Positions 105-23,376 of a DNA stretch of 64,000 bases are shown here, one piece after another. Each line of letters opens with the position of its first letter. The stretch's first letter is position 1. Origin of the DNA: Kangiella sp. (GTDB lineage Bacteria; Pseudomonadota; Gammaproteobacteria; Enterobacterales; Kangiellaceae); NCBI RefSeq assembly GCF_014762745.1, contig NZ_JABURJ010000112.1:1-64000 (forward strand), given 5' to 3'. The position numbers and the translations under genes were made by a program. Below the pieces are notes generated by a model. It was not told the origin of the DNA, did not search any database, and saw nothing but the letters and a program-made list of their open reading frames with translations.

Positions 105-1181
105 TTACATATAAAACCAGGTATCATCAAGATGCTCTACAATTTCTTGTGCCAAATTTGAAGAGAATAGATTATCTGAATTTCCAAACATAACGATGCC
201 ATAACCTTTTTCCTTATAGAAATGGCAATAGGCTCTGAAGTCACCGTTATTTCCAGAATGGTAATATCTCAAACCCTTTGTTGTTTGCTTAACTGGAAAG
301 CCCAGGCTACGATGCATCTCACCCTCTTCACTCGGCATTTGAGTTTGGAGCGAAAGAAAATCCTCAACCAGCTTTCTCTTTGAAGCTGGTGGTTTCATGA
401 GTGTAATCAAAAATTTCGCATAATTCTCTGCTGATGTATTTAAGCTGTAGGATGCTCCAAAGTTCATGTCGTGTTTGTGATTATCTGTTGGCAATCCCTT
501 TCGATGGCCAAATGCTTTCCGTGACGGAATCTCATCATCCCATGTATACATCATAAAGTCGGCTCCGATTGATTCGACGACTTCTTTATCAACTAATTCT
601 TGTAAACCATCATCATCGACTTGCAACAACTCCTGAAGCACTCTTCTTAAATACTCATATCCTTCACCTGAATACTGAAACTGAGTCCCTGGCGTGAATA
701 GTACCTCTAACTCATCACCCGGATTCTTTCTCCAATTTACTAATCCTGAAGTATGCGTTAGTAGCATACGTGCCGTTATCTGTTTATGGCGGCTATCGAT
801 TAAAAGGTGTTTATTAGGATGGTATTGATATAAAGGTTCATCCAGTTCGATCAGCCCTTTTTGAACTTGTAGCATTACAAAATAAGCAAATAGAGGTTTG
901 GAGAGAGATGCCGCTTCAAAAATTGTTTTGTTTGTTATTTTTTCTCCTGTCGAAGTGTTTTTTACTCCAAAGGCTCCCTTATAAGCAATACTACCATCTT
1001 TAATAATTACGACTGAAACACCAGGCACCTTGAGTTTTTTCATTCGCTCTTCAATAAATCGATCAAGCTTGGCTGCCTCAAGTGAATCAGCAGATTCTTT
1101 TTTGATTTCTCTGGGATTGCTTTGACACGCAGTCAAAGCAATGATTAACATGCTAACCGCTAACCAATCCCCAAATTTCAT
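105..1181 (-). CDS. beta-lactamase-fold serine hydrolase, putative lipoprotein
   Basis: SLSK (SxxK) and YSG motifs; lipobox LTAC; start moved to MKFGDW to avoid overlapping the upstream gene. Confidence 0.8.
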   Translation of the reverse strand: MKFGDWLAVSMLIIALTACQSNPREIKKESADSLEAAKLDRFIEERMKKLKVPGVSVVIIKDGSIAYKGAFGVKNTSTGEKITNKTIFEAASLSKPLFAYFVMLQVQKGLIELDEPLYQYHPNKHLLIDSRHKQITARMLLTHTSGLVNWRKNPGDELEVLFTPGTQFQYSGEGYEYLRRVLQELLQVDDDGLQELVDKEVVESIGADFMMYTWDDEIPSRKAFGHRKGLPTDNHKHDMNFGASYSLNTSAENYAKFLITLMKPPASKRKLVEDFLSLQTQMPSEEGEMHRSLGFPVKQTTKGLRYYHSGNNGDFRAYCHFYKEKGYGIVMFGNSDNLFSSNLAQEIVEHLDDTWFYM

Positions 1182-1191
1182 TAATCGATAC

Positions 1192-2670
1192 TCAATATTT
1201 AATAAGGTCATAGTTCCAGCCACTTTCATGAGTAACACGCACCCACTTAATGGAACCGTCCCTGCCTTGTATGAATTCGTAAGTGGTGTATTCAGATGGT
1301 AGTATAAATTTATTGATCGCGATTGGTATTAACTCTTGACCCAGCTTCTCAACTTCCGACGATAGATAAAATTTTCCATCTTTAATTGAAAACTGGCTTA
1401 CTGCACCATCTTCTTTACCATCACCGAATTTACCCAGATACCTTGCTAAGCTATCTTCATCTATTGATACAGGCTCATATACTTTTGGTTTAAGCAATTT
1501 CCAGTCATATTCTTGCGCTACCGCTCTAGCTATTGCGGCCATCAGCGCAAAGCCATTATCACTGTTGGTCATCACCACCAATCCCTGTTTATCCTCGAGA
1601 GAGCCGACCATATAGGAGGTAAACCCTGCATTGCTTCCCCAGTGGTCAAAGATCAAATCATTTCCTTCATCGCTATACTTCTTTGTAAAGCCAAGTCTGT
1701 TCTCTGTTCTGGCAAATATTTGCTGTGCCATCTTCTTTGATACCAACACATTACTTCCTTCGTGATAGTCATTCATTAGAGCATTCATGAATTTGGCTAA
1801 ATCATCAGGCGTGGTCCATATTCCACCGGCCGCTCTCCATGGAAATATTTTATATGGATAGGGTTGTAATTCATTCGAATAGCCAATTGCTTTTCTCTTC
1901 TTTAAATACTCCGGTATAGGCTGCACAAAAGAACTGTCTTTCATGTTTGCTGGCGATAATACGCCTTCTTCAACAATCTCTTCGAAGCTTTTGTCAGTCA
2001 CATCTTGTATCAGTTGTTCAATGATGTAATAGCCGGGATTTGAATACTTGTACCGTTCACCTGGTTCTGCCATCATCGTAATAGCAGGATCGACAGAAGG
2101 AGCTTCTCCTGCCAACATTTGTGCTACTGTTGGAATCTTCTCTTCTGTACCGTATGAAGACCCGACGAGATTCATTACACCAGCAGTATGACCTATCAAG
2201 TGGCGTAGGGTGACTTTTTGTTTTTTTGTTAAATCACTTTCCGGAACTTTCCAGCTCTCCAGCTTAAGATTAACATCCTCATCCAGCTCTAACTGCCCCT
2301 GATCTACTAATTGTAATGCTGTGATTGCCGCTATTGGTTTGCTCAAGGATGCTCCTGTGAAAACTGTTTCAGGAGTTACTTTCTCAAGCTTTACCAAGTC
2401 TGCATAGCCATAAACCTTACGCCATGCAATTTTTCCATCATCTATAAAAACGATGCTTACTCCCGCAATCTTATCTTGTAGCATCACCTGCGGAATTGAT
2501 TTTTTTGTCACATGACCTTTCAGATAATGTATTGGCAAAAGATTACTTTCTATTTTCTCAGCCACTTTATTTTTTGAAGTCATATTCTCGGCAGTATTAG
2601 AAGCCATCGCCTCTACTCCGACCGTAAGTAATATCAAAACGATTGCTTTCACTAAAGTTTTTCCTGACAT
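1192..2670 (-). CDS. beta-lactamase-fold serine hydrolase, secreted
   Basis: SLSK, YSN motifs, signal peptide-like N-terminus. Confidence 0.85.
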   Translation of the reverse strand: MSGKTLVKAIVLILLTVGVEAMASNTAENMTSKNKVAEKIESNLLPIHYLKGHVTKKSIPQVMLQDKIAGVSIVFIDDGKIAWRKVYGYADLVKLEKVTPETVFTGASLSKPIAAITALQLVDQGQLELDEDVNLKLESWKVPESDLTKKQKVTLRHLIGHTAGVMNLVGSSYGTEEKIPTVAQMLAGEAPSVDPAITMMAEPGERYKYSNPGYYIIEQLIQDVTDKSFEEIVEEGVLSPANMKDSSFVQPIPEYLKKRKAIGYSNELQPYPYKIFPWRAAGGIWTTPDDLAKFMNALMNDYHEGSNVLVSKKMAQQIFARTENRLGFTKKYSDEGNDLIFDHWGSNAGFTSYMVGSLEDKQGLVVMTNSDNGFALMAAIARAVAQEYDWKLLKPKVYEPVSIDEDSLARYLGKFGDGKEDGAVSQFSIKDGKFYLSSEVEKLGQELIPIAINKFILPSEYTTYEFIQGRDGSIKWVRVTHESGWNYDLIKY

Positions 2671-2741
2671 ATACTTTATCCTTTCTATAATCTATATCAT
2701 GAATAAGTTAATTCGTTGTATCTTACAACTTAATCTAAAAA

Positions 2742-3803
2742 TTACTTTTCCAGCATCAGCTGATATAATTTTTGAATGTCTGCAGGATGGCCCTGCTTTT
2801 TTAATCCTATAAAGATCAAAAAACCCAGCATTGAATTGCCGGTGTCACGACGCGTAACCAGTACCAAATCCTGCTCACGATTAACCAACATGAACTGTCC
2901 GCCCCAACCATCGGCTGCCACAGCATCAAGCTCAGAGTTCAACCACCATGAGTAGCCAAATCCGTCATAGAAATAATTGTTTGTCTCTGAGTATGGCTTG
3001 ACGCTTTTCTCGATCCACTCCTTTGAAATTAGCTGTTTTCCGTCCCATATTCCATCTTGAGCGACTAAAGCGCCTAACCGCGCAAGATCACGTGCACTCA
3101 TATGAATCCGATAGGTTCGAAAATCCGAGTCGGAACCCTGCTTATCATAAAAAACATGTTTTTGACTATAATCTTGCATACCCAAAGGTATTGCCAGCCA
3201 AACTTCCAGTGCTTCCCCAATAGACAGCCCAGTTTCTTTTTCAAAAACTGCACCCAGCACATTGAAGTCCCAGTTGTTATAAAAATAATGCTCACCGGGA
3301 GCATATTGCCCACGGCCCGGACGACCATCCTTTATCTCTACCGTTTCTGCACCAGACTGCAGGTAAATCCCTGAGCGAGCCTGTAAAAGCTGTTCGATAG
3401 TCGCCTGCTTTTCAATTTCTGTCAGTGGGTTGCCAGTTTCATCAATGCCCAGTTCAGCAAGCGTTTGCTCTATATCAATCAGACCACGATCCGATGCGAT
3501 GCCAAACAACAAACTCAGCACACTTTTTCGGGCAGAGGCCAGATTCATTGGCGTACCCACTTCGCCATATTGCATTAAAGCCCTTTCACCGCGCAACATC
3601 ACAAAAGCATCTATACCATCGGCTTCATTCTCAATAAAAGTTTTAATCTTCTCTGCTTGGCCTTGTGGCAAAGGCGCTTCTTTCAGCGGAACAGGATTCG
3701 CTGCTTCTGCATCTCTGTCAATAAAGGGACGAAGCCCAATCACCACCGCAATGACTAGAACTACCAGCATTACAATACCGATATACTTTATAATTTTTCG
3801 CAT
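2742..3803 (-). CDS. beta-lactamase-fold serine hydrolase
   Basis: NLASARKS (SxxK) and YNN motifs; N-terminal TM segment. Confidence 0.8.
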   Translation of the reverse strand: MRKIIKYIGIVMLVVLVIAVVIGLRPFIDRDAEAANPVPLKEAPLPQGQAEKIKTFIENEADGIDAFVMLRGERALMQYGEVGTPMNLASARKSVLSLLFGIASDRGLIDIEQTLAELGIDETGNPLTEIEKQATIEQLLQARSGIYLQSGAETVEIKDGRPGRGQYAPGEHYFYNNWDFNVLGAVFEKETGLSIGEALEVWLAIPLGMQDYSQKHVFYDKQGSDSDFRTYRIHMSARDLARLGALVAQDGIWDGKQLISKEWIEKSVKPYSETNNYFYDGFGYSWWLNSELDAVAADGWGGQFMLVNREQDLVLVTRRDTGNSMLGFLIFIGLKKQGHPADIQKLYQLMLEK

Positions 3804-3947
3804 ACCAAGTGTTCCTTGTTAACTTTTATTATTCATCAGCTTTAACAAACATGTATTTGCTTGCAAGGCTAGCAGCACAGAGTTTCTTCCACGTACATCT
3901 TAGTTAGATGCTTAATAACTCATACGGGTTTAGTTAGTGGCTAGTGA

Positions 3948-5255
3948 CTAGTTCTGCTTCTTTACTAAATGATATTCCTGGTCTTGAAACTTCATCACTG
4001 CATCATAGTCTTTTGACTCAGTCATTAAGAAGTTAATGGTTAAGGGTATCTCTGCCAGTTTGAACTGGTGCTCATTCATTCCATACATTCGTGTTCTTCG
4101 AACCAGATCTCCCTCAGCAGTTTCTTCAATGTAAATCATTCGTCCATCACTATTTTGAAAAGTAAATGAATTGCCTTCGAGATCATCTTTTATGTAATAA
4201 ACGCCGACAAAAGGTGCTAACTCTTCATCGGAATATTGTCTTGCTGGCGGGCTATCAAACTTGGGTAAATCAATCGTAGGATCGAGAAAATGCAGTGCTA
4301 CTTGTTGCAATGCATCATCGGCGCTTGAGTTGCTTAATAAGACAATACCCACTTTATTATCTGGACGGTAGCCTACAAACGCCTGATTACCATTGCCATC
4401 ACCACCGTGGTAATAGCTGACAAAGTCTTTTTCTTCATATTTCTTCCAACCAAGATTGTTATAACCATTCTGATTCGAATTTTCCGATGTGTTGATTTGG
4501 TGCTCTATAAACTTTGCTAAATCACGCGCTGTTGAATAGAGTCCGCCTGCTCCTCGCGCGACATCAACGGTAGACATGTTCGGCTGCTTTACCGGCTCCA
4601 TGACTCGATGCATGCCAACTAACCATTGCGTGTCAGGCTCATAACTGGTTTGTTTTAAATCCAATGGCTTGATGATCGTCTCCGCCATTAGAATTGCAAT
4701 ATCCTTTTCTTTCACTTTCGCCAGCGATAATGCCAATATAGCCATCCCTGCATTGGAATACTCATATTCTGCCGGCAATGATTGGCTACGATTCAAAGTT
4801 GCCAACAATAGTCGCACATCATTATTTGCCAATGCTTCAAAGGGAATCTTTCTGGGTAACGCAGCTTTATGACTCGCTAAGTGCCATAGCTGAGTGTCAC
4901 TTCCATCAACCACACCAGGCCAAATATCTTTAACCTTGGTTTCATAGCTCAGAGTTTCATCCTCAACCACTTGTTGAAAAGCTTCGGCTGTGAATAATTT
5001 AGTTAGCGATCCAATGGCAAACTGCGAGTCCGCCGAAAGCTCTTTATTCTCACCGGCAACTGCGCTGCCATAACTATAAAAGTAAGTGCCATTAGGATTG
5101 ATTAAAGCAACAACCACTCCTGGGCGATGACCACCATCTACCGCTTTTTGGATACTGTCTTTAACTTCTTGTGGGATCTCGGTTAACTTCTCAACCCTAT
5201 AACTTTCACATCCAACTACCAAAAAACAAAGGATAAAGGCTTTTAATAATTTCAT
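3948..5255 (-). CDS. beta-lactamase-fold serine hydrolase, lipoprotein-like
   Basis: SLTK, YSN motifs; N-terminal MKLLKAFILCFLVVGC lipobox; 4-bp ATGA overlap with upstream XRE gene. Confidence 0.85.
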   Translation of the reverse strand: MKLLKAFILCFLVVGCESYRVEKLTEIPQEVKDSIQKAVDGGHRPGVVVALINPNGTYFYSYGSAVAGENKELSADSQFAIGSLTKLFTAEAFQQVVEDETLSYETKVKDIWPGVVDGSDTQLWHLASHKAALPRKIPFEALANNDVRLLLATLNRSQSLPAEYEYSNAGMAILALSLAKVKEKDIAILMAETIIKPLDLKQTSYEPDTQWLVGMHRVMEPVKQPNMSTVDVARGAGGLYSTARDLAKFIEHQINTSENSNQNGYNNLGWKKYEEKDFVSYYHGGDGNGNQAFVGYRPDNKVGIVLLSNSSADDALQQVALHFLDPTIDLPKFDSPPARQYSDEELAPFVGVYYIKDDLEGNSFTFQNSDGRMIYIEETAEGDLVRRTRMYGMNEHQFKLAEIPLTINFLMTESKDYDAVMKFQDQEYHLVKKQN

Positions 5256-10707: not shown

Positions 10708-11298
10708 TTATTTCATAATTGTCAGGCTATCCACCCAAATTAATTCACAAGCGCCATTTCCCGTATCATTCCTGGTTAGCGAACTGCTCCAAAACCAACC
10801 ATCTTTTGCTTTCACATTCACCAGACTGCCAGATAACTCAATAATCTCCCCTTCTCGAATATCATCAATCAGGTGCTTAACATATTCATCAGCAGGTATC
10901 AGATGCATATTAGCACTGTGTGTTTCTATTTCACGACGAGGTATTGGAAATGACTCAACACGCCAGCGATAAAAGCGGCCTGATTGAGTGATGTTGATAT
11001 GCTGTAAAATACTTTCATCCGACATTCTGCCCCAGCCCAAGGCCAGATCAGTTGGCGAAACCTCCGCCTCACGACCAAAATAGTAATTTTCCTTTGCTAA
11101 TACTTTCGCTTTAATCCGAAAGTTCGCAATCTTAGTAACAGTGAACCCCTGGTGATTGAAACTTATTGGAGGGTCTAAATTTTTTTGCAGTGGTATCTCA
11201 GGTGCCATAACGCCGGGACCTAAGGATACCTCTCTGGAGTAATTCCAGAATCCCCAAACAACGACTATGAGCAAAACCACTAACAGAATTTTTTTCAT
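10708..11298 (-). CDS. conserved hypothetical membrane-anchored protein
   Basis: Intact ORF, N-terminal TM; GACELIWVDSL C-terminus. Confidence 0.7.
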   Translation of the reverse strand: MKKILLVVLLIVVVWGFWNYSREVSLGPGVMAPEIPLQKNLDPPISFNHQGFTVTKIANFRIKAKVLAKENYYFGREAEVSPTDLALGWGRMSDESILQHINITQSGRFYRWRVESFPIPRREIETHSANMHLIPADEYVKHLIDDIREGEIIELSGSLVNVKAKDGWFWSSSLTRNDTGNGACELIWVDSLTIMK

Positions 11299-11516
11299 GA
11301 ACTAACTATAAGTTAATTCTACCTCTGATTGTAGTTCCTATGTTCTTTTATAGCTTTAACAGGGCTTTTCACTATCGACTTTCCGGGGAATCCAACAACC
11401 TTACAACCAGCCGTCATTGTTGGGCCTGACCGACAATACAGTGACGTTAATAGATTTATTATCTATAAAAATGTTAAGAAAGAAACTTTAATTTTTTTGT
11501 TAGAAATTTTTTTTAC

Positions 11517-13026
11517 TCAGCGGTATCGCTCGTGCGTCGCATACCATTCTGCCTTGTCGCGGTACATGTCCTCATCTGCAACAGCTAACACCTTTTCGGG
11601 CTCTATATGGCTGGAGCTAGCCAAACCAATGCTAAGTTCAAGGGGTACAGCAGCCTTCCCCCTGCTCTCCATCCGGCAGTCGAATTTGGCGCCCCAATAC
11701 CTCACGCCTAATCCGTTCTCGCAGTCCTTTTGCATCGTCACGACTACTGCCACGGCAAATAACCACAAACTCATCACCACCATAACGTCCGAAGGCATCC
11801 GTGGCACGACAAACTTTCTGCAGTGCGGCCGCAGTTTCTCGGATAAGCACATCCCCGGCTTCGTGGCCATATTTGTCGTTGACTTCCTTCAAGCCGATCA
11901 CATCGATCATTAATACCGCAAACTCCATGGCACCGTGCTGCTTACGGCTTCGTATGGCAGAAGCTAGCTCGGCGTCAAGGCGTCCACGGTTGAAGACACC
12001 TGTCAGAGGATCCCGCTCTGCCGCATATTTCAGATCAAGCGCGAGCATCTTGTTCTCGATGTGTACTCCGAGCATTTCAAGAGACAGCCGGGTAGCTTCG
12101 CGGAGCAACGAACTGATCATTCGCGCACGTATTACCATGATGCCTTCATTGCCACGAACTCGGCTATTATCGAAGACCATTTGAAATATGATTCCATTGT
12201 CAGGATTGACCCAGGTTAACTCTCGGCTATCTGGTGTGTGTCTAGCAGACAAATACTTCACCACCGCATTCTGCTCTTCCTCAGAAATCCCCACGAATTC
12301 CACGAAACGCAGGACTCCTGGCCGCTTCACATCCCGCACTACCATCCCCAGGCCATACTTTGGGTAAAGGTCATGAATTCGTTGTAGCGCATCCTGGATG
12401 AATTCTTGCACCTCCCCCACAAGATCGGCGCTTGACGAAATCTCTACCAGCACCTGAAAGACACGATTTCGTTCCTCTACCCCACGGGTTGTGCTGACCA
12501 GACGGGCATTCTGATTGTACGCAAGGAAGCCCACACCAAGCACATAGCCCAACAGGAGGGCCATGGACATTATGTCTAGATAGAAAGGGCCTTCAATCTG
12601 CAACTTCCAACCGTTGATGATACCACCTGCAATTGCGCCTAATGTGTACAGAGCCAGCGAAAGCATCAGCTGCCTACTACCGCCAACAACTGACGCGTTC
12701 AAGGCAATAGCGACCATGAACCCGAAAGATAACCAAAGGTAAAAGTTAACGTAGGCTGCCAGGAAACCTAAAATCAGGGAATCGGCGAGGATGGCTCTTG
12801 TTTCAAATCGAGCAGTTGCCGAGAGAAGCCCACCAGCCACAACAAGCAGGTGTGGGTATATGAGAAGATACAGCGCAGGAAATGCAAGATACCAAACGCC
12901 CCAACCCCGTTCTTCAGCCAGGAGCGCAATAATTACAAAGCTTATGGTAAAGGCAATAGCTCTTGGAGCGTAATTGACGCGAGACAGGCGGTGCGCACCC
13001 GCCATGAAGTCTTTAAACATGCTCAA
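11517..13026 (-). pseudogene. membrane diguanylate cyclase (GGDEF), frameshifted
   Basis: GRYGGDEFVVICRG in ORF 11638-13026; GGDEF C-terminus (LELSIGLASS...ADEDMYRDKAEW) in another frame in ORF 11517-11870. Confidence 0.75.
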
Positions 13027-13512
13027 CTCCTATTGTTACCTGGCCGTCGTCTGATATACAACCGGCCTAACTATGAGTCGATGTCACCTAGCTCTTTCCA
13101 TATTGCTACATCCGATAAAGTGTTCACCTATAAACAAATATGATTCATGTCCTGCTTCATACCATTCAATCTACTGTGTATTTGCGTATCTACACATAAT
13201 TTTAAAAACTCACACTTATGACCATATTCTCATTGTTAAATTTTTACAAGTATCGGCTTCCCCTCACTATGGGTTAACTCTCGCACTTGTTTAGAAATCA
13301 ATGAATAAATGAAGGAATCTTCTGGCACCCTTAATGATTTGAGTAATACTGCACCCAATGACGGAGTCGCTCGAACATGGTTGGTCAAATCTGCTCTTGC
13401 CCACATCGGCCAGCAAAGAGCATCATTCGTAGGGGCGACTCGTGCCGAGTCTTTTTCAACCTACCAGAATACCACTACCCGGCAATCCAGTGACATTGCT
13501 GTACTGATCGCC

Positions 13513-14298
13513 TTATAAATTTTCCCAGGACTGCCGTGAATATCCGAAGTGTTCAAAATCTTTCTGATAAAGGTTGTAAATACGGTCGGCCAACTCGGAA
13601 TTTAAAACAGGGGCAGCTAGAGGGCCGCTGGCATTAGCTGGACGCGAAAGCTGCTGCCTAATCCAGTCTGGCGACACTCCCAGAGGTTGCAAGAGATGCA
13701 TTACCCCCTGAACCATTCCAGTTTCTATTTGATGGATATGGGTATAACACACCTTTTCTAAGCAAAGGACACTCGTCTGCGTATCCCAATGCTGGTTACG
13801 TTTCCCTTCTGGCTGAGATTCGATATAGCTCAAAAATGTCGCAAACGGCACTGGTGCCTCCTCGCTCGCCCCCAGCAGATTATTATCCCTTGCATAACGA
13901 CGAATTTGCGGCACCAACTTTCTCATACTGGGCGGATATTGTGGTGCATAAAAGCCCTTAACCAGCTTGTCATTCCATGCAGATATCACTCGTGTGTAAG
14001 GGTTACGGACAAAACAATGGAATTCGTATCGTTGCGGGTGAGCAAAAGCATCAATATAGTCGCGTAGAGGAGCGGTCATGTAACGTCGCTTGCTATTCAT
14101 CGGCCAACCGCGTCCTCGTGCGGGAGGTATTCCCTGCTGTTTCATTGCTGCAACGACAATCTCGCGAAATGCCGTGGAGCCCACCTTTGGATTTAAAAAC
14201 ACCACCCGCTTATGGTCACTCTGAATATAAACTTTATAGGGGCTAAAGTGAGGAAGACGAAAAACAGGTAACGCGGTTTTAAGGTCCTTTAATAGCAC
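13513..14298 (-). CDS. sulfotransferase family 2 protein
   Basis: NPKVGSTAFREIV PAPS-binding-like motif; CFVRNPYTRVISAWNDKL. Confidence 0.8.
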   Translation of the reverse strand: MLLKDLKTALPVFRLPHFSPYKVYIQSDHKRVVFLNPKVGSTAFREIVVAAMKQQGIPPARGRGWPMNSKRRYMTAPLRDYIDAFAHPQRYEFHCFVRNPYTRVISAWNDKLVKGFYAPQYPPSMRKLVPQIRRYARDNNLLGASEEAPVPFATFLSYIESQPEGKRNQHWDTQTSVLCLEKVCYTHIHQIETGMVQGVMHLLQPLGVSPDWIRQQLSRPANASGPLAAPVLNSELADRIYNLYQKDFEHFGYSRQSWENL

Positions 14299-14712
14299 TG
14301 TGACTCCGACATTTTACAAAATTTGGGACATCCAAACTGTAGTTGATAACTCAAGTTCAGGCAAATAATCTTTTAGCTACAAGTTAATGCAGTACTATTA
14401 TACTGATGAATATTTACTGAATGACTAATTAGTGTACGCCGAAAGCTTAATCATATAAAACACCACTAATTACCATATAAAGAGCAGTCTTCATTGCTGT
14501 GATAGCACCTAATAAAGCTGCCCATAAATTGGACGCACCCATTTGGCGGCATGATTGATTACTTAATCCCATAACTTTGTCACCATATGTCATTGTCGGG
14601 CGTGACCCGATAAGCCAGCGACTTTAATAAGGTTCTCGCCTATCAACAATGTGCGGAATAAACTTTAATTTGTCCGTGTGCAAATTTTTAGTCGATGCCA
14701 CACTGAGTAAAA

Positions 14713-15075
14713 TTACTCATCTTGTTTGAACTCACGCAGCTGAATATGATTACCGTCTGAATCGGCAATATTGCAAACACTGAACAAAGGATTTGACCAA
14801 GCACCATCAAAAGCCTTTCCACCTAACTCCACCGCTTTTTCCTTAGCTGCTCCAAGATTATCCACTGTTAGAAATAGCTTTACGGTATTTACATTTTGCT
14901 GCGGGATTATTGTTGGCGGCGTATGAACAATGACGTTGAATCCATCTTTTGCAAGACTAATAAATTCTGAAGTTTCTCGAATAACCTTCATCGAAAACAG
15001 TTCGGTGTAAAACTGAGCAAGCGCCTTTATATCGCTTGAGTAAATTATTGCCCCATACTTTACTGGACCGTTCAT
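14713..15075 (-). CDS. VOC (glyoxalase/bleomycin resistance) family protein
   Basis: Size and fold pattern; ADSDGNHIQLREF C-terminal motif. Confidence 0.85.
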   Translation of the reverse strand: MNGPVKYGAIIYSSDIKALAQFYTELFSMKVIRETSEFISLAKDGFNVIVHTPPTIIPQQNVNTVKLFLTVDNLGAAKEKAVELGGKAFDGAWSNPLFSVCNIADSDGNHIQLREFKQDE

Positions 15076-15142: not shown

Positions 15143-15484
15143 TCAGGACTGCGGGTCGAGCCCGAATACACGTAGCTCTTGGTCACAACGACAAGCCTTC
15201 GCGATGCGCGCGGCCCACGCGATGGCTTCATCGCGTGAGGGTAGTTCGAGCACAGTGAAGCCACCATCAAGCGGTGGCGCCCATGGATAACCGCCCTCAG
15301 CGACCGACCCATTGGCTGAAACTAGAACGGGGGGCACCGTTTCGTCAATACCACCACCAAAGACATAGACTCCAGCGGCTTTCGCCTCATCGATCACGGC
15401 GTGTGCGTCGCGACCCACCGCCTCCAACTCACTATCGGATACATTCATTGCAGCACTGGGGAATGAAATTAAATATTTTGCCAT
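15143..15484 (-). CDS. YciI-like (YCII-related) protein
   Basis: 113 aa; GYPWAPPLDGGFTVLELPSRDEAIAWAARIAKACRC. Confidence 0.85.
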   Translation of the reverse strand: MAKYLISFPSAAMNVSDSELEAVGRDAHAVIDEAKAAGVYVFGGGIDETVPPVLVSANGSVAEGGYPWAPPLDGGFTVLELPSRDEAIAWAARIAKACRCDQELRVFGLDPQS

Positions 15485-15528: not shown

Positions 15529-15605
15529 GTCTAACGCCTCCAGCAGAGAAGGCAAAAACATAGCGAAGGAGCGATTTTGACTTCCCTTTGGCTGACATTG
15601 ATATG
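15529..15605 (-). repeat. putative attC site behind the metallo-beta-lactamase gene
   Basis: Minus strand ATCAATGTCAGCCAAAGGGAAGTCAAAA...TTTTTGCCTTCTCTGCTGGAGGCGTTAGAC; imperfect inverted repeat ending in canonical R' GTTAGAC; R'' degenerate. Confidence 0.55.
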
Positions 15606-15614
15606 CTGCATACC

Positions 15615-16415
15615 TTATTTACTCGGTACGCTAACTTTGTGTGCTTCAACAATATTGGCGGTGTGTTGAAGCAACTCCAGGCCTCCTGGTAGACCATGCC
15701 CAGGGACAATAACTTCAACCTCAGAATAGCGTTGCTTAATTCGTTCAATGGAAACGGGCCACTCCATCAGATCAGCATCAGCAACATTACCTGCGGTTGT
15801 GCGTGAAGCTTCGTGAATAGCACAACCTCCAAACAACACGCGTGCCGAGGGAACGTATACCACTAGATTATCGGGAGAGTGCGCCGCACCAGGGTAGAAA
15901 ACCTCAACAGGACCAAAGTGCACTACATCTCCACTTGAGGAAAACTCTCCCAGCGAGTGGGCAGGCACCTCGCTACCTTCCGCCTTAGCTAGTCGGCGTG
16001 TCAGATCTGATGCGTATGTTTCCACGCCAGCTTTCCCAAGAACCTGGACTCCGCCGACCCGGTCGTCATGGAAGTGTGTGGAAATGGCGCGCGTTACGGG
16101 AAGCCCTATCTGCTTTTCTATTGCTACCAGAAGAGCCGCAGTGCTATCAGCGCCCCACGCTGAATCAATCAACAACAACTCATCACCGTCACGAACGATT
16201 AGCCCATTAGACGGATAAGCCACTTCACCAAAGTTCTGCGTTGAGATATGAGACCAAATTCCATCGTCAATCTGAAAAATCCGAACCTGCCCAACCGGCA
16301 CTTCATCGGCTAACGGGTATGCACGTTCCGGCTCCGCAGCAACAGCAAGCGAAACGAATACGGCTATAAGATAGAAACCGAGCCCAAAAATAAAACGGCG
16401 AGTTTGCATCATCAA
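15615..16415 (-). CDS. subclass B1 metallo-beta-lactamase, VIM-like
   Basis: [43 protein letters not shown] (all B1 zinc ligands); [22 protein letters not shown] and [10 protein letters not shown] as in VIM enzymes; signal peptide. Confidence 0.93.
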
Positions 16416-16524
16416 TACCTCCTAAGAATCAACCGCGGCATCAGCCCGCATTTGAGGCCACAGTAAAGCTTAACAGAGCAAGAACCCGACAGAGTCGAAC
16501 TATGTACGGTTATCACAAATTACT

Positions 16525-16803
16525 CTAATCATTTTTAGTGAGTTCTCTTTTGATAAATATTTCCACTGGTATAAAAGCAAAGGGAATAATAGATGCCAAG
16601 AAAACCATCAACCAAATGCCCAAAGACCAATTTTGGCGATGCGAAGCTAGCAGTGATAATACGAAATACAAAAGAAATATAACGCCATGCCCCATACCAA
16701 TAATGAAAACATAATCTCTACTAATAACGCCTAGCGTTACACACAATATAAGCAGATATGAAATGCCTTCTATCAGGCTGACGACTCTAAAAACCTTTAA
16801 CAT
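16525..16803 (-). CDS. DUF3817-like membrane protein
   Basis: 92 aa, three TM segments, RVVSLIEGISYL start. Confidence 0.65.
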   Translation of the reverse strand: MLKVFRVVSLIEGISYLLILCVTLGVISRDYVFIIGMGHGVIFLLYFVLSLLASHRQNWSLGIWLMVFLASIIPFAFIPVEIFIKRELTKND

Positions 16804-16852
16804 TGAAGATACTCTTGTTACTCAGGGAGGGATAATTTTTATTATATAAATT

Positions 16853-17560
16853 GGGGCTGATCCAGATAACTAGCCCATTCCGTCTTTAACCCATTGTTTT
16901 AATTGCTTTAATTGAAGCTTTGGGTCGCTGTAATTAAATCGCCACTCACATTCCTTCAAATAGAGTGGAAACTGCTCTTTCGGAATACCATTAAACTGGC
17001 GTAAATGTCTCTTTGCCTGGTTCCAAAAATTCTCTATTCCATTGATGTGATTATGCTTATCTGCGAACAACTGACTATGGTTGATTCGATAGTGCTTAAA
17101 TTCACTCACATCCAACGCGTTATAGCTGCGAAAAGTATCAGTATAAACAATGCTGTCTGGCTTCACTTTGTCACGAATAATAGGAAGCAAAGTCTGCTCT
17201 TTAGCATCGGGTATAATCACCGTAAAAACCTTGCCTCCACGCTTTAAAAGGCCAAACACTGGTATTTTACCTGCTGCGCCTCGACCTCGTTTTCCTTTGC
17301 GTTTACCACCGAAATAACTCTCGTCAACTTCAACCTCACCAAGTAGCTGCTCTGATGGTTCACTATACTTAAAAATCAACTGCCTTAAACGCTGATAATA
17401 GTAAATAGCTGTCTTAACATTTACGCCAATCAACTGGGCAGCACAACGAGCTGTTGTACCAGCCACAAAGTGCTCGATAAGGCGGTTCTGTTTGTATTGG
17501 CTGAGTCTACTTTTATTCATTTCCAGATAATACTAAATTATAGTTATCTGGATCAGCCCC
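16853..17560 (-). mobile_element. IS1595-family insertion sequence
   Basis: 20-bp perfect terminal IRs GGGGCTGATCCAGATAACTA (16853-16872 / 17541-17560) flanked by 8-bp TSD TATAAATT (16845-16852 / 17561-17568). Confidence 0.95.
16870..17520 (-). CDS. IS1595-family transposase
   Basis: EVDESYFGGKRKGKRGRGAAGK, VYTDTFRSYNAL, NHINGIENFWNQAKRHLRQFNGI. Confidence 0.95.
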   Translation of the reverse strand: MNKSRLSQYKQNRLIEHFVAGTTARCAAQLIGVNVKTAIYYYQRLRQLIFKYSEPSEQLLGEVEVDESYFGGKRKGKRGRGAAGKIPVFGLLKRGGKVFTVIIPDAKEQTLLPIIRDKVKPDSIVYTDTFRSYNALDVSEFKHYRINHSQLFADKHNHINGIENFWNQAKRHLRQFNGIPKEQFPLYLKECEWRFNYSDPKLQLKQLKQWVKDGMG

Positions 17561-17806
17561 TATAAATTTAATTGTCAGACTTTATTATCATTAGTCTTTT
17601 TTTACAAGGGCGGCTTTTCATGTCACCACTACGCAGCCAACGCTTTGTTAATCTATAGGAAATTGACTTCAAGACAGATTTGTATAGGTAATTATTTAAG
17701 CTTCCATCATGTCATTGTCGGGCTTGACCTACAATCCAGTGACTTTGCTGTTCTGATCTTCAAAAAACCAAACGGAGAAATGATTAAGTTGGCTAGTCCA
17801 TAACAT

Positions 17807-18913
17807 TTAAGGTAAGTCTGCACCCTCGCCAAGCACTATTGGCAATATATGATTTCTGCTTAGCCGATGATGCGTTGCATTTTTATATTTAGTATCGTGT
17901 GCATTTAACAACAGAACGATTAAAAGATCACGATTCGGCACAAACTGAATCAGAGCGGTGTAGCCATAGTCAGTGCTACCACCCATCTGAATAATTGACT
18001 CACCACTTATTTCGACCTGAGCCAAACTACCTAGCAACCATCGCTCGTTCGCCTCAATAAAAACTGAATTTGACGCCCCTGCGGGGAATATCGTTCCGTT
18101 TTTAAGTGCAGCAGACCAGGTAGCCAAATCATCAATTGACGTAACCATACCACCAGCACCAACTAGCGCCCAGGTTAAGCCTTTTTCAAAAGTGGTACTG
18201 CCTTGGTCATCGCCCCCATAACCACGAGCTATGTTATTTACTGATACTCGTTGATCTTGATAGAAGCCGGTGTTGCTCAAGTTTAATGGGGTCAATAAGT
18301 TGTCGTGAACGTAATCCTGAAAGGGCTGCTCGCTCACTTTCTCGACGATAGCCGCCAACAGAGTATAGCCCGCATTGGAATACGCAATTTTCTCGCCCGG
18401 CTTAGCAATTAACGGCATAGCTAAGATTCTGCTTTCAGCCTCGGCTTTATCCATCAACTCAAAGTCAGAATCATTGTGAAAGTTATCCAAGCCACTTGAA
18501 TGCCCCAAGAGCTGCATAATTGTTATCGGCTTTACTTCATCAGGTGCCGTTGGATAAAAATCTCCAATCGTATCGGAAAGCTGCAACCTTTCACTCTGGG
18601 CAAGTTGTAGAACCGCAGCTGCGGTAAACGTTTTCGCAATTGACCCCATATCAAAAATAGTGACAGCACTATTCTTCACAGAGCTTTCTCTATCTGCGTA
18701 ACCATAAGCACTCTTAAATAAAACAGCATCACTCTCAGTAACCAGAACCAGCCCATCAAAAGTACCCGCCATGTGTTCTCGCTGAAGTTCATCAGCCAAG
18801 CTAGCGATAACCCCATTATCCGACTGAATGATTGAAGACATATTGCGATAGTCAGATACAGCACTACAGCCTGAAAGAGTGAGGACAAATAAAAAAGTGA
18901 TTAGTCGATTCAT
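17807..18913 (-). CDS. beta-lactamase-fold serine hydrolase, lipoprotein-like
   Basis: SIAK, YSN motifs; LTLSGCSA lipobox. Confidence 0.85.
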   Translation of the reverse strand: MNRLITFLFVLTLSGCSAVSDYRNMSSIIQSDNGVIASLADELQREHMAGTFDGLVLVTESDAVLFKSAYGYADRESSVKNSAVTIFDMGSIAKTFTAAAVLQLAQSERLQLSDTIGDFYPTAPDEVKPITIMQLLGHSSGLDNFHNDSDFELMDKAEAESRILAMPLIAKPGEKIAYSNAGYTLLAAIVEKVSEQPFQDYVHDNLLTPLNLSNTGFYQDQRVSVNNIARGYGGDDQGSTTFEKGLTWALVGAGGMVTSIDDLATWSAALKNGTIFPAGASNSVFIEANERWLLGSLAQVEISGESIIQMGGSTDYGYTALIQFVPNRDLLIVLLLNAHDTKYKNATHHRLSRNHILPIVLGEGADLP

Positions 18914-18980: not shown

Positions 18981-19292
18981 TTATTCATCTTCCTCTAAAT
19001 GCCAACCAACGATATCTCCGACATCGTTGTAAACATTAAAGATAACCTCGCAGTCGCAATAGCCACCATGTTCCTGCAGCCAGGGGACTATCGTTTCAGG
19101 TATTAGATTGCGGGATTTCAGGAAGCCAATAGTTTCCTTATGGGTATGGTCACAGGGAGGTACATCTTCCCTGTCTAGGAATGACAGCAAATCTTTAAGT
19201 TCATCGATTTCCATAGGGATGGATGACTTTAACGCCTCCTGTTCATTCCGCTTGAATTCAGCTTTTAATCTTTTCTTCTGATCTTTATCCAT
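18981..19292 (-). CDS. DUF2695-like small protein (cassette ORF)
   Basis: CDHTHKETIGFLKSRNL...EHGGYCDCEVIFNV. Confidence 0.7.
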   Translation of the reverse strand: MDKDQKKRLKAEFKRNEQEALKSSIPMEIDELKDLLSFLDREDVPPCDHTHKETIGFLKSRNLIPETIVPWLQEHGGYCDCEVIFNVYNDVGDIVGWHLEEDE

Positions 19293-19312: not shown

Positions 19313-19390
19313 GCATAACACCGGAGTTAAGCGGCCGAGCGTAGCGAGGTCCAGCCCCGTAGGGGCGATGCTGATTGGCCTTGTTATAGG
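19313..19390 (-). repeat. attC site (integron recombination site)
   Basis: Minus strand CCTATAACAAGGCCAATCAGC...GGCCGCTTAACTCCGGTGTTATGC; R''/L''/L'/R' layout between two cassette ORFs. Confidence 0.85.
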
Positions 19391-19400
19391 CTTCTCTGGT

Positions 19401-20198
19401 TTATTCATCTAATTTTTGTTTAAGCTCATCAATACGTACTTCGCAATACTTAACCTGGGATTTATACCATCTGGATCTCGGGTCAGCTTCAAGATCTTTT
19501 TGATACTTATCCTTTTCTTCTTTTAGAGTTTCGGATTCTACCAAGCAAAGCTCCCGCTCATAATCAGTGGCACTTGAGCCAAGCTTAAGAAAAACCTCGC
19601 CGTACTCTTCAATTATTCTCTCGTGCCTCTCTTTTTCCCAGTCTCTAACACTGTCATAAGGCGTAGCATGAGTGGTCTTTTTCTCGATTAGCAGGTTCGC
19701 GAAACTAGATTTCAGTTTCTTTCTATAGAGTTCTGAAGCTTGCTGATAATACCCTAAGTCTGCTGCGAGCTTCGCTGAAGGGATCTCCTTCAATAACCTT
19801 TCTGGTGTTGAATATTGTTGAAACCACTCGAGCCCAGGACCTGATAAAGCATCTACTACCTCTTGAATAGACTTTTGGGCTCCTTCAGGCGTTTTAGTCC
19901 ACCATGTATGTTGCCCATGCCCAAACCCCTCAGGCGACAGATGACCTAAGTAACCAACACCGCGAGGAAATGGTTCATCTTTGTGCTGGCAAGGTATCCA
20001 GTAAGGAGTAATTAGGACATCAAATAATGGGTTACCTCTATGCGAAAAATTCAAGCATACGACCCATGCTAGCCTTTCATCTTCATTCGGAAACTTCCAA
20101 TATGTGGGGGTACTAGTTTTCTTTCTAATAAATCCAATCTCAGCCATTTTCTTATCCAATTCTGGCATCAATTGTTTTTTGAATTCTTGGTAATTCAT
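19401..20198 (-). CDS. DUF4304-like hypothetical protein (cassette ORF)
   Basis: Intact ORF delimited by attC-like sites; N-terminal DUF4304-like pattern. Confidence 0.65.
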   Translation of the reverse strand: MNYQEFKKQLMPELDKKMAEIGFIRKKTSTPTYWKFPNEDERLAWVVCLNFSHRGNPLFDVLITPYWIPCQHKDEPFPRGVGYLGHLSPEGFGHGQHTWWTKTPEGAQKSIQEVVDALSGPGLEWFQQYSTPERLLKEIPSAKLAADLGYYQQASELYRKKLKSSFANLLIEKKTTHATPYDSVRDWEKERHERIIEEYGEVFLKLGSSATDYERELCLVESETLKEEKDKYQKDLEADPRSRWYKSQVKYCEVRIDELKQKLDE

Positions 20199-20213: not shown

Positions 20214-20315
20214 CTATAACGAATGAGCTTAGCGGCGACCTTGTAATGGAGGCGTAGCCGCAATGAAAAGGGCGTCCGGCGGCCATCGGCCGCGTACTAC
20301 AGCGACTTGTTAAAA
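20214..20315 (-). repeat. attC site (integron recombination site)
   Basis: Minus strand TTTTAACAAGTCGCTG...GTCGCCGCTAAGCTCATTCGTTATAG; directly after the stop codon of ORF 20317-20610. Confidence 0.75.
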
Positions 20316-20619: not shown

Positions 20620-20700
20620 CCTTACCTTTTAACATTATATTACCGGACGTCGCCGATAACCTTTTGATTTTAAATAATTTATTTTCAATGTCCGTTTTTC
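20620..20700 (-). promoter_or_regulatory. candidate attI region
   Basis: GTTAAAAGG core (minus, ~20628-20634) between the first cassette ORF and intI. Confidence 0.45.
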
Positions 20701-20864
20701 CGGCTAATACCATATAAAACCGGACATTTCTGTTCTGGTATCTCTTTTTGAATTGGGTTTACAGATACCATGGTCAATGACCTACAGGCCTTATAGTAAT
20801 TGGCTCTTTAGTAATTGCAACGCTTTTTTTAGTATGCAGCTAAATCCGACAAACAGGACAAGGA

Positions 20865-21830
20865 ATGTCTGGCTCTCCTTTTTTACAATCTATTCGTACA
20901 TACCTGCGAACGAATCATTACAGTTATCAAACTGAGAAGTGTTATCTGTATTGGATTAAGGATTTTATTCGCTATCATCGAATGGAGCATCCTCAAAATC
21001 TATCGGATGCTGATGTCAGTAACTATTTATCTTTTTTAGTTGTTGAACGTAACGTCAGTAGAAGCACTCAAAAACAATCCTTGAATGCTCTGGCTTTTCT
21101 CTATCGAGAGATTATCGGCAATCCTCTGGGTGTCCTGCCAGGTATTACACGCTCTAAAAAGCCTCTTCGTTTGCCTACGGTATTTAGCCCTGATGAGGTT
21201 TCCCGGATATTTTCAGTTCTCACGGGGGAATATAAAGTTATTGCTTCTCTTTTATATGGTAGTGGCATGCGTATTTCTGAAGCTTTGTCGCTACGCGTCA
21301 AGGACATTGATTTCACAAGAAGCACTGTGACTGTTAGGCAAAGCAAAGGTGAAAAAGATAGAGTCACGATTTTATCCAAATTATCCGCTCAATTACTTTC
21401 TGACCATTTCTCTCACCTGAAAATTAACTATGATAGTCTTAAACTAGATTCTGATTGGCCTGGCGTGCATTTGCCTAATGCTCTAGGTAAGAAATATCCA
21501 AATGCCCATAGATCCTGGGGATGGCAGTTTGTCTTCCCTTCCTCTACCAACCCTCCCGATTTGATTACGGGTGTTCGTCGTGGCTATCATCGCCATCCTA
21601 GAACCATTGGTAGAGTGCTTAACCATGCGTTCAAACAAGCCAACATAACAAAGCATGCTTCGAGCCATGCTTTCCGTCATTCTTTTGCGACTCATTTGTT
21701 AGAAGCTGGTTACGATATTCGCACTGTGCAGGAGTTGCTTGGGCATAAGAGCGTCGAGACGACTCAGATTTACACGCACGTTATGAATAAGGGGGCTAAT
21801 GCAGTTAAAAGCCCATTGGATCATTTATAA
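20865..21830 (+). CDS. intI: integron integrase (IntI-type tyrosine recombinase)
   Basis: GSGMRISEAL, HAFRHSFATHLLEAGYDIRTVQELLGHKSVETTQIYTHV; IntI-specific insert KYPNAHRSWGWQFVFPSS; C-terminus VKSPLDHL. Confidence 0.93.
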   Translation: MSGSPFLQSIRTYLRTNHYSYQTEKCYLYWIKDFIRYHRMEHPQNLSDADVSNYLSFLVVERNVSRSTQKQSLNALAFLYREIIGNPLGVLPGITRSKKPLRLPTVFSPDEVSRIFSVLTGEYKVIASLLYGSGMRISEALSLRVKDIDFTRSTVTVRQSKGEKDRVTILSKLSAQLLSDHFSHLKINYDSLKLDSDWPGVHLPNALGKKYPNAHRSWGWQFVFPSSTNPPDLITGVRRGYHRHPRTIGRVLNHAFKQANITKHASSHAFRHSFATHLLEAGYDIRTVQELLGHKSVETTQIYTHVMNKGANAVKSPLDHL

Positions 21831-21846
21831 TTTAATAAGGATATTT

Positions 21847-23376
21847 ATGTCTCTCGCTATTGTTTATTCCCGCGCTGGGGTTGGGATTGAGGCGCCGTTG
21901 GTGACGGTTGAGGTACATTTGTCGCACGGTTTGCCGAGTTTGAATATTGTCGGTTTGCCGGAGGCTGCGGTTAAGGAGAGTAAGGATCGGGTGCGTAGTG
22001 CGATTATTAATTCGAACTTTGAATTTCCGGCGCGACGTATCACGATCAATCTAGCCCCTGCGGACTTACCCAAGGAAGGCGGTCGTTTTGATTTGCCGAT
22101 TGCCTTGGGCATTTTGGCGGCTTCTGGGCAGTTGCCGTCTGATTATTTATCCAATTATGAATTCATTGGCGAGCTGGCTTTGACTGGTGAGCTCCGTCCG
22201 GTTAAGGGTGTCTTGCCGGTGGCGCTGGCTTGCACTGAAGATCAACGTACCTTGGTTGTGCCGGAAGCTAATTCTTCGGAGGCGGGTTTGGTGCCATCGG
22301 TGCAGGCGGTTCACGCCAAGCATTTATTGGATGTCTGCCAGTCGTTGATGCGTAACACACCTTTACCCGAATGCATCAATGACGCAGTGGTTAATGATTA
22401 CGACTTTGATATGGATATGTCGGATGTGATTGCCCAGGAGTCGGCCAAACGTGCCTTGACGATTGCGGCAGCGGGTAAACATCACCTGTTATTTATCGGT
22501 CCTCCCGGTACGGGTAAAAGTATGCTTGCTTCACGCATGCAAACCATTCTGTCGCCCATGACCGAGCAGGAAGCGAAAGAGTCGGCTTCGATTTATTCGG
22601 TCAGTCATTTTGGTTTTGATGCGAGTCAGTTTTTTGTGCGAAAGTATCGTGCGCCCCATCATTCCTGTTCCGCACCTGCTTTGATTGGTGGCGGCAGTCA
22701 TCCCAAGCCCGGGGAAATTTCCTTGTCGCACAATGGTGTTTTATTTCTTGATGAGCTGACCGAGTTTTCGCGTCAGGTGTTGGACAATCTGCGCGAGCCA
22801 CTGGAGAGCGGCAAGGTTACGATTTCACGTGCGGCTCATCAGGCGGAGTACCCAGCCAACTTCATGTTTCTTGCCGCGACCAATCCGTGCCCTTGTGGTC
22901 ATTATGGTAATCCGAAAGGCGCCTGTCGCTGTTCGCCGGATGTCATTCGTCGCTACTTGGGCAAGATTTCTGGGCCGCTTTTGGATCGCATTGATATGCA
23001 GGTTGAAGTGCCCTTGTTAAGTCAGCAGGAATTGACCAATGGCAAACCTAAAGAAGCTAAGCCGCAGGAAACTAGCGCATATTTACGTGAGCGCGTGATG
23101 AAATGTCAGGAGGCTCAATATAAAAGACAGGGTAAGCTGAATGGTCAGTTGCAGGCTGGGGAAATTGATGACCATTGCCGCCTATCGGATTCAGCGAAGA
23201 TGCTTTTAAATAAAGCTCTGGAGCAATTGAATCTTTCGGCACGTTCCTATCATCGGATTATTAAGGTTTCGCGAACCATAGCGGATTTGTCGGGTGAAGA
23301 GTTGATTCAGCCGCATCATATTAGCGAGACATTGAATTATCGGAAGATGGAGCGGTATCTGGCGCAGTTGCCGTAA
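21847..23376 (+). CDS. comM: YifB/ComM family Mg-chelatase-like ATPase
   Basis: MSLAIVYSRAGVGIEAPLVTVEVHLSHGLPSLNIVGLPEAAVKESKDRVRSA; GPPGTGKS Walker A. Confidence 0.95.
   Translation: MSLAIVYSRAGVGIEAPLVTVEVHLSHGLPSLNIVGLPEAAVKESKDRVRSAIINSNFEFPARRITINLAPADLPKEGGRFDLPIALGILAASGQLPSDYLSNYEFIGELALTGELRPVKGVLPVALACTEDQRTLVVPEANSSEAGLVPSVQAVHAKHLLDVCQSLMRNTPLPECINDAVVNDYDFDMDMSDVIAQESAKRALTIAAAGKHHLLFIGPPGTGKSMLASRMQTILSPMTEQEAKESASIYSVSHFGFDASQFFVRKYRAPHHSCSAPALIGGGSHPKPGEISLSHNGVLFLDELTEFSRQVLDNLREPLESGKVTISRAAHQAEYPANFMFLAATNPCPCGHYGNPKGACRCSPDVIRRYLGKISGPLLDRIDMQVEVPLLSQQELTNGKPKEAKPQETSAYLRERVMKCQEAQYKRQGKLNGQLQAGEIDDHCRLSDSAKMLLNKALEQLNLSARSYHRIIKVSRTIADLSGEELIQPHHISETLNYRKMERYLAQLP

Follow-up and report, generated by a model that had tools for sequence, protein, structure and literature searches.

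The locus described here lies in a window of 64,000 nucleotides (the whole stretch of DNA that we analysed, 43.5% GC) from Kangiella sp., whose 2.79-Mb genome is assembled in 146 contigs. Within it, a gene for a VIM-like subclass B1 metallo-beta-lactamase is found about 4.5 kb from the end of an integron integrase gene (intI), between two fixed points formed by comM-intI on one side and a conserved gene at 10708-11298 on the other. The contig of 77.8 kb carries genus-typical DNA on both flanks, which is evidence against a chimeric assembly. The features of the region are as follows.

10708-11298, minus strand: conserved gene past the variable region, at the distal end of the array (50-56% identical in five congeners)
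11638-13026, minus strand: gene for a MASE2-GGDEF protein, close to the far end of the variable region (Pfam)
13513-14298, minus strand: array gene of the sulfotransferase family (profile search)
14713-15075, minus strand: array gene with a glyoxalase/VOC fold (profile search)
15143-15484, minus strand: YCII-like array gene, downstream of the VIM-like gene (Pfam match below cut-off)
15529-15606, minus strand: attC-like site of the VIM-like cassette, beginning nine bases past the stop codon (best score in the array)
15615-16412, minus strand: coding sequence of the VIM-like B1 metallo-beta-lactamase, 265 amino acids (profile, structure-database and alignment evidence)
16418-16423, minus strand: Shine-Dalgarno-like AGGAGG (read in the sequence)
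16525-16803, minus strand: gene for a DUF3817 membrane protein, the immediate upstream neighbour of the VIM-like gene (profile search)
16853-17560, minus strand: IS1595-family insertion sequence (transposase profile; terminal inverted repeats)
17807-18913, minus strand: PF00144 array gene, serine hydrolase/class C beta-lactamase fold (bla_class_C 83 bits, cut-off 415)
18981-19292, minus strand: DUF2695 array gene (profile search)
19313-19389, minus strand: attC of the second cassette
19401-20198, minus strand: second cassette gene, 265 amino acids (no Pfam family)
20214-20315, minus strand: attC of the first cassette (low score; confirmed by a match to a plasmid attC)
20317-20610, minus strand: first cassette gene, membrane-like protein of 97 amino acids (no Pfam family)
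20630-20864, no strand assigned: leader adjoining intI, the probable attI region, with attI function inferred (about 85% shared with congener G006)
20865-21827, plus strand: integron integrase IntI, 321 amino acids, 47% identical to IntI1 (TIGR02249 399 bits, cut-off 265)
21799-23376, plus strand: comM, a YifB-type Mg-chelatase-like ATPase (Pfam; adjoins intI in nine genomes)

The array genes lie on the minus strand and run away from intI, and the comM reading frame overlaps the end of intI, with its true start probably near 21847. Two genes upstream of the VIM-like gene, the IS1595 element has terminal inverted repeats and lies between perfect 8-bp target duplicates, AATTTATA (16845-16852 and 17561-17568), so its insertion into the array was probably recent. 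Short repeats are interspersed among the array genes, one of the form ATGTCATTGTCGGGC..GACC (14587-14607, 17709-17729 and 11411-11431) and another reading CAATCCAGTGAC (13483-13509 and 17732-17758). The window also holds five PF00144 genes (class C beta-lactamase/esterase fold), four of them in tandem at 105-5255 and the fifth at 17807-18913; a strong homologue of the gene at 3948-5255 (71%) was present in one of 16 congeners searched.

The initial annotation had envisaged a sedentary chromosomal integron and a gene native to its host, and comparison across the genus upholds the first proposal and speaks against the second. An intI gene is present in nine of 20 genomes of the genus and adjoins comM in all nine (the host and eight congeners), and it is this fixed position that marks the integron as sedentary. 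The close relative G006, whose IntI and ComM are 96% and 94% identical to those of the host, shares DNA up to position 20630 (intI, comM and the leader), and the similarity stops at the first cassette. Array contents differ among congeners, G006 has none of the cassettes in the window, and the VIM-like gene was absent from all 19 other species of the genus in which it was sought. Based on these comparisons, the integron is a native, genus-wide element, and the VIM-like gene an accessory part of its changing content. The arrangement is that of other sedentary chromosomal integrons in its divergent intI, same-orientation cassettes, variable content and fixed genus-wide locus, here beside comM, but differs in that the array is short and has few clear attC sites. 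A 111-bp copy (77%) of the intI-adjoining stretch at window positions 20721-20830, perhaps a second attI-like site, occurs 7.5 kb into the G006 array (L069 6803-6911). The literature collection that we searched contained no paper on integrons in Kangiella.

Whether the VIM-like gene is itself a cassette depends on the site behind it. Three schemes for detecting attC by folding alone overlooked even clear sites of the array, and we used instead a score combining R box motifs with arm complementarity, trained on 12 congener and 5 mobile sites (none from the window) and controlled with 308 kb of wrong strands and non-integron DNA as well as 60 shuffles of the array. The site at 15529-15606 scores 30.1, compared with a control maximum of 27.7, and this value was reached in 0 of 60 shuffles. 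Its boxes read GCATATC (R'') and GTTAGAC (R'), and its arm GGGAAG..CAAAA pairs with TTTTG..CTTCTC. The R'' box differs by a single base from the GCATAAC found in the attC sites of VIM-1, VIM-2 and VIM-7; because this turns the core AAC into ATC, the site may recombine poorly. As DNA, it folds no better than its shuffles, and neither do clear attC sites, such that this comparison lacks power. A search for the site found no match in plasmids, a search of phage records was negative, and an Rfam search of the window returned nothing.

The highest-scoring attC-like site in the array directly follows the stop codon of the VIM-like gene, which is therefore, as far as its sequence can tell, an integron cassette. 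The most serious competing reading is that the gene is an ordinary chromosomal or island gene 4.5 kb from intI and that the region past the second attC is not a cassette array. There are just two other strong attC sites, both less than 1.6 kb from intI, and the score of the one at 19313-19389 (27.5) is matched by the strongest background; the outer intergenic stretches are long, with no clear attC site, and an IS1595 copy lies in between. In addition, no clear attC or attI was seen at the upstream border, between 16803 and 16412 (from the DUF3817 gene to the VIM-like gene), and for this reason the cassette unit may hold two genes, or its border may have decayed. Weighed against a site score above everything in the 308-kb control, a gene orientation as expected for cassettes, and content that varies between the conserved comM-intI pair and the gene at 10708, we regard a non-cassette origin as improbable.

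The attC of the first cassette ties this integron to the mobile world. Despite its low score, it was confirmed by a 97% match over 89 bp to a site on pEC521_2 (window 20217-20312; L084 4001-4095, AP027409.1), an IncN plasmid of a pig E. coli with a class 1 integron (dfrA12-aadA1-...-qacEdelta1-sul1), whose row of cassettes ends with the match. This near identity shows that sites of this integron lineage do reach clinical-type integrons. The plasmid cassette that precedes the matching attC showed no obvious match to the first cassette gene of the window.

The initial annotation had also described an open reading frame of 266 codons at 15615-16415 with intact B1 motifs, and a signal peptide unlike that of VIM throughout. 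The frame and its motifs exist, although it is the minus strand that encodes them: the plus-strand frame holds many stops, and the minus strand is open for 265 codons from an ATG at 16412. The 266-residue version begins at a TTG at 16415, and the ATG is the likelier start because AGGAGG stands five bases before it. Sec-type features judged by eye predict a signal peptide over roughly residues 1-27. Its alignment with the VIM-7 signal peptide needs no gaps, and it is not as wholly different from VIM as the earlier description implied. All six B1 zinc ligands (HxHxD, H196, C221 and H263 pattern) are present, as had been claimed, with the motifs HFHDDR, GAAHS, GGCAI and PGHGLPG in register with VIM-2, NDM-1 and IMP-1, and loop L10 keeps VIM-7-like residues (HEASR, H224/R228 type). 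A promoter search close upstream produced no strong or convincing candidate. The third-position GC content (GC3) is 0.445, near the host value and below the 0.52-0.57 of mobile VIMs. Overall, this looks like a gene that is expressed and under selection.

Family models place the protein near VIM, though outside its curated limits, and the earlier view of a diverged VIM-like enzyme distinct from known alleles is sustained. The NCBIfam blaVIM model (NF012100) gives 441 bits (E = 1.3e-132), less than its curated cut-off of 500 bits, which VIM-7 (535) and VIM-1 (592) pass; the protein is thus VIM-like and not a VIM allele by NCBI naming. The Bowmanella protein from genome G918 and the protein from gammaproteobacterium G561, both discussed below, follow at 385 and 304 bits. 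The general B1 equivalog model (NF033088) reports 252 bits for a cut-off of 200, and the next-best B1 family model gives 203 bits versus 441 for blaVIM. The protein also matches the solved VIM-like structure 2y87 (E = 6e-123), and the two E values exclude chance resemblance; solved VIM structures exist at about 70-75% identity to it.

Over the mature domain, the window protein is 73-75% identical to VIM-1, -2, -4, -7 and -61, 63-64% to the Bowmanella proteins, 55% to the G561 protein and, apart from such VIM-like relatives, no more than 40% to NDM, IMP and the other B1 enzymes compared; mobile VIM and Bowmanella proteins are 64-70% identical to one another. PYX, COR, MYX, NDM, IMP and other B1 families share its fold and ligands, but their models give it at most 203 bits, and identities where compared are 33-40%. 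With the mobile VIM family it has in common subclass B1, all ligands and loops, and the form of an integron cassette whose attC begins just past the stop codon. The mobile genes reside in class 1 integrons on plasmids and transposons, whereas the window gene is part of a chromosomal sedentary integron and occupies a sister branch of its own. Matches in plasmid records were VIM-7 (69.6% over 98% of the query) and VIM-61 and the VIM-1/-4/-19 group (72-73% over 92%), and plasmid records yielded no closer relative than these; viral contigs yielded no VIM relative. We sought relatives in 1,235 whole genomes and in a pattern-limited scan of 84,980 species (one genome each). Among those found, the window protein is the nearest non-clinical relative of VIM, and given the set of genomes searched, closer relatives may exist.

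A maximum-likelihood protein tree of 27 B1 enzymes, the phylogenetic check proposed at the outset, joins VIM, the window protein and the Bowmanella proteins in one clade (support 99.5/100; 94.4/96 with G561), the inner order of which is without support. A codon-model tree makes the window gene sister to all mobile VIMs, with Bowmanella outside (97.9/96). In the AU test this topology scored 0.991 and the five alternatives tried were rejected (p no greater than 0.03); the two in which mobile VIMs enclose the window gene gave p values of 0.015-0.03, and neither is rejected by the more conservative SH test. The SH test and the protein data are compatible with a window gene inside the mobile VIMs or outside Bowmanella, and an analysis restricted to first and second codon positions fails to separate the branching order. 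The sister position is favoured by the full codon model alone and, with synonymous sites near saturation, should be taken with care.

Divergence estimates bear on the timing. Between the window gene and VIM-1 or VIM-7, dN is about 0.16-0.17 and dS 1.0-1.7, whereas dS between VIM-1 and VIM-7 is 0.5-0.7; the split between the window gene and mobile VIMs therefore predates the deepest of the splits tested among mobile VIMs. Because dN/dS against mobile VIMs is about 0.1-0.2, the window gene has been maintained by purifying selection. At such synonymous distances the gene would be an old sister of VIM and not its recent progenitor, and so not the source of the clinical VIM spread of recent decades. 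The initial annotation had suggested that a diverged homologue in a sedentary integron would bear on the origin of VIM; it does so indirectly, as an old sister.

The same distances weigh on two further histories. One is that a VIM-type cassette from clinical settings or wastewater recently passed from mobile class 1 integrons into the chromosomal one, a notion encouraged by the mobility of VIM cassettes elsewhere and by the array attC nearly identical to that of a plasmid class 1 integron. It is very improbable given a dS of 1.0-1.7 to every mobile VIM, DNA identity of no more than 73.7% across 298 VIM-bearing plasmid records, the lack of any known allele nearby, and a GC3 closer to that of the host than to those of mobile VIMs. 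The other makes the window gene a native chromosomal gene and the direct ancestor of the mobile VIM genes. Its sister position in the codon tree and its existing cassette form fit that idea, which is nevertheless hard to credit for a gene missing from the other 19 species searched, with synonymous sites near saturation and a place in an exchangeable array that even in G006 has different contents.

The reading that we prefer, and to which we assign a probability of roughly 85% from the sequence data at hand, is that the window encodes a secreted di-zinc B1 enzyme of the VIM lineage, whose gene is one of the cassettes of a sedentary chromosomal integron and is sister to mobile VIM without being its recent source. 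The enzyme would be exported to the periplasm by the Sec pathway, where a zinc-bound hydroxide would open the beta-lactam ring, and its 73-75% identity to VIM and intact ligands lead us to expect protection of the host against penicillins, cephalosporins and carbapenems. The cassette would have been inserted by IntI from outside the genus, and the attC that follows the gene might allow its excision. Many metallo-beta-lactamase-fold proteins use other substrates, but a hydrolase devoid of useful beta-lactamase activity is scarcely to be expected here, given that all B1 ligands and the VIM active-site loops are retained, that the B1 equivalog cut-off is exceeded, and that B1 enzymes with identities as low as 30-40% have been reported to hydrolyse imipenem in E. 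coli (PMC5637372).

The search for relatives turned up other loci. The pattern scan of 84,980 species added three, of which those in Pseudomonas defluvii and Paenalcaligenes suwonensis are ordinary mobile VIM alleles and the third is in Bowmanella denitrificans JL63, and whole-genome sampling added the gene of the Bowmanella congener G918 and the more distant G561 gene. On a 327-kb contig of P. suwonensis 191B (L026 4647-6756), a VIM-1-like allele stands directly behind an integron integrase that shares 45% identity with IntI1; this is a mobile VIM outside class 1 integrons. The two Bowmanella genes, 82% identical to each other, are positioned as follows.

L025, 6001-6747: VIM-like gene of B. 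denitrificans JL63
L053, 6028-6846: VIM-like gene of Bowmanella congener G918 (likewise below the blaVIM cut-off)

Both belong to the supported clade of the window protein, but unlike the cassette they occupy one common chromosomal locus, in which a gene for a large TolB-like amidohydrolase is followed by the VIM-like gene and by VOC, AraC and LysE genes (JL63 has one extra acyltransferase gene relative to G918). The VIM-like gene is present in two of five Bowmanella genomes, and two others have a distant B1 gene only (36-42%). No integron integrase above cut-off was detected in the JL63 genome, and the gene is apparently resident there, outside any integron. The Bowmanella genes are candidate outgroups for VIM and, at a conserved non-integron locus, bear as much as the window gene on its origin. 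The B1 gene of G561 (L054), the next outgroup of the VIM clade, likewise has a non-integron setting, behind an isochorismatase-like gene, and occurs in one of 57 members of its family. Elsewhere in the Bowmanella family, genome G960 (L049) has a B1 gene of 41% identity with one internal TAG, which would mean a pseudogene, a sequencing error or readthrough.

VIM is a hospital enzyme that destroys last-resort antibiotics. We know of no established origin for it, and to our knowledge VIM carbapenemases are met almost only as mobile cassettes.

Berglund and colleagues grouped VIM with chromosomal B1 genes of proteobacteria, and their large B1 survey found no mobile B1 gene with a close chromosomal match (PMC5637372). 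Attention to attC sites has led others to conclude that resistance cassettes probably derive from sedentary chromosomal integrons (PMC8352920). In the literature collection that we searched, no VIM-like gene had been described from either Bowmanella or Kangiella. As a tentative scenario, which we consider rather doubtful as a whole, a Bowmanella-like chromosomal gene could have been captured as a cassette and spread among the sedentary integrons of marine gammaproteobacteria, with one branch passing into class 1 integrons and giving rise to clinical VIM.

The window gene and the Bowmanella locus provide two concrete non-clinical relatives of VIM, and together these genes give work on the evolution of VIM an enzyme to serve as outgroup. 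Through targeted sequencing of marine gammaproteobacteria, it thereby becomes testable where VIM turned into a cassette, and how.
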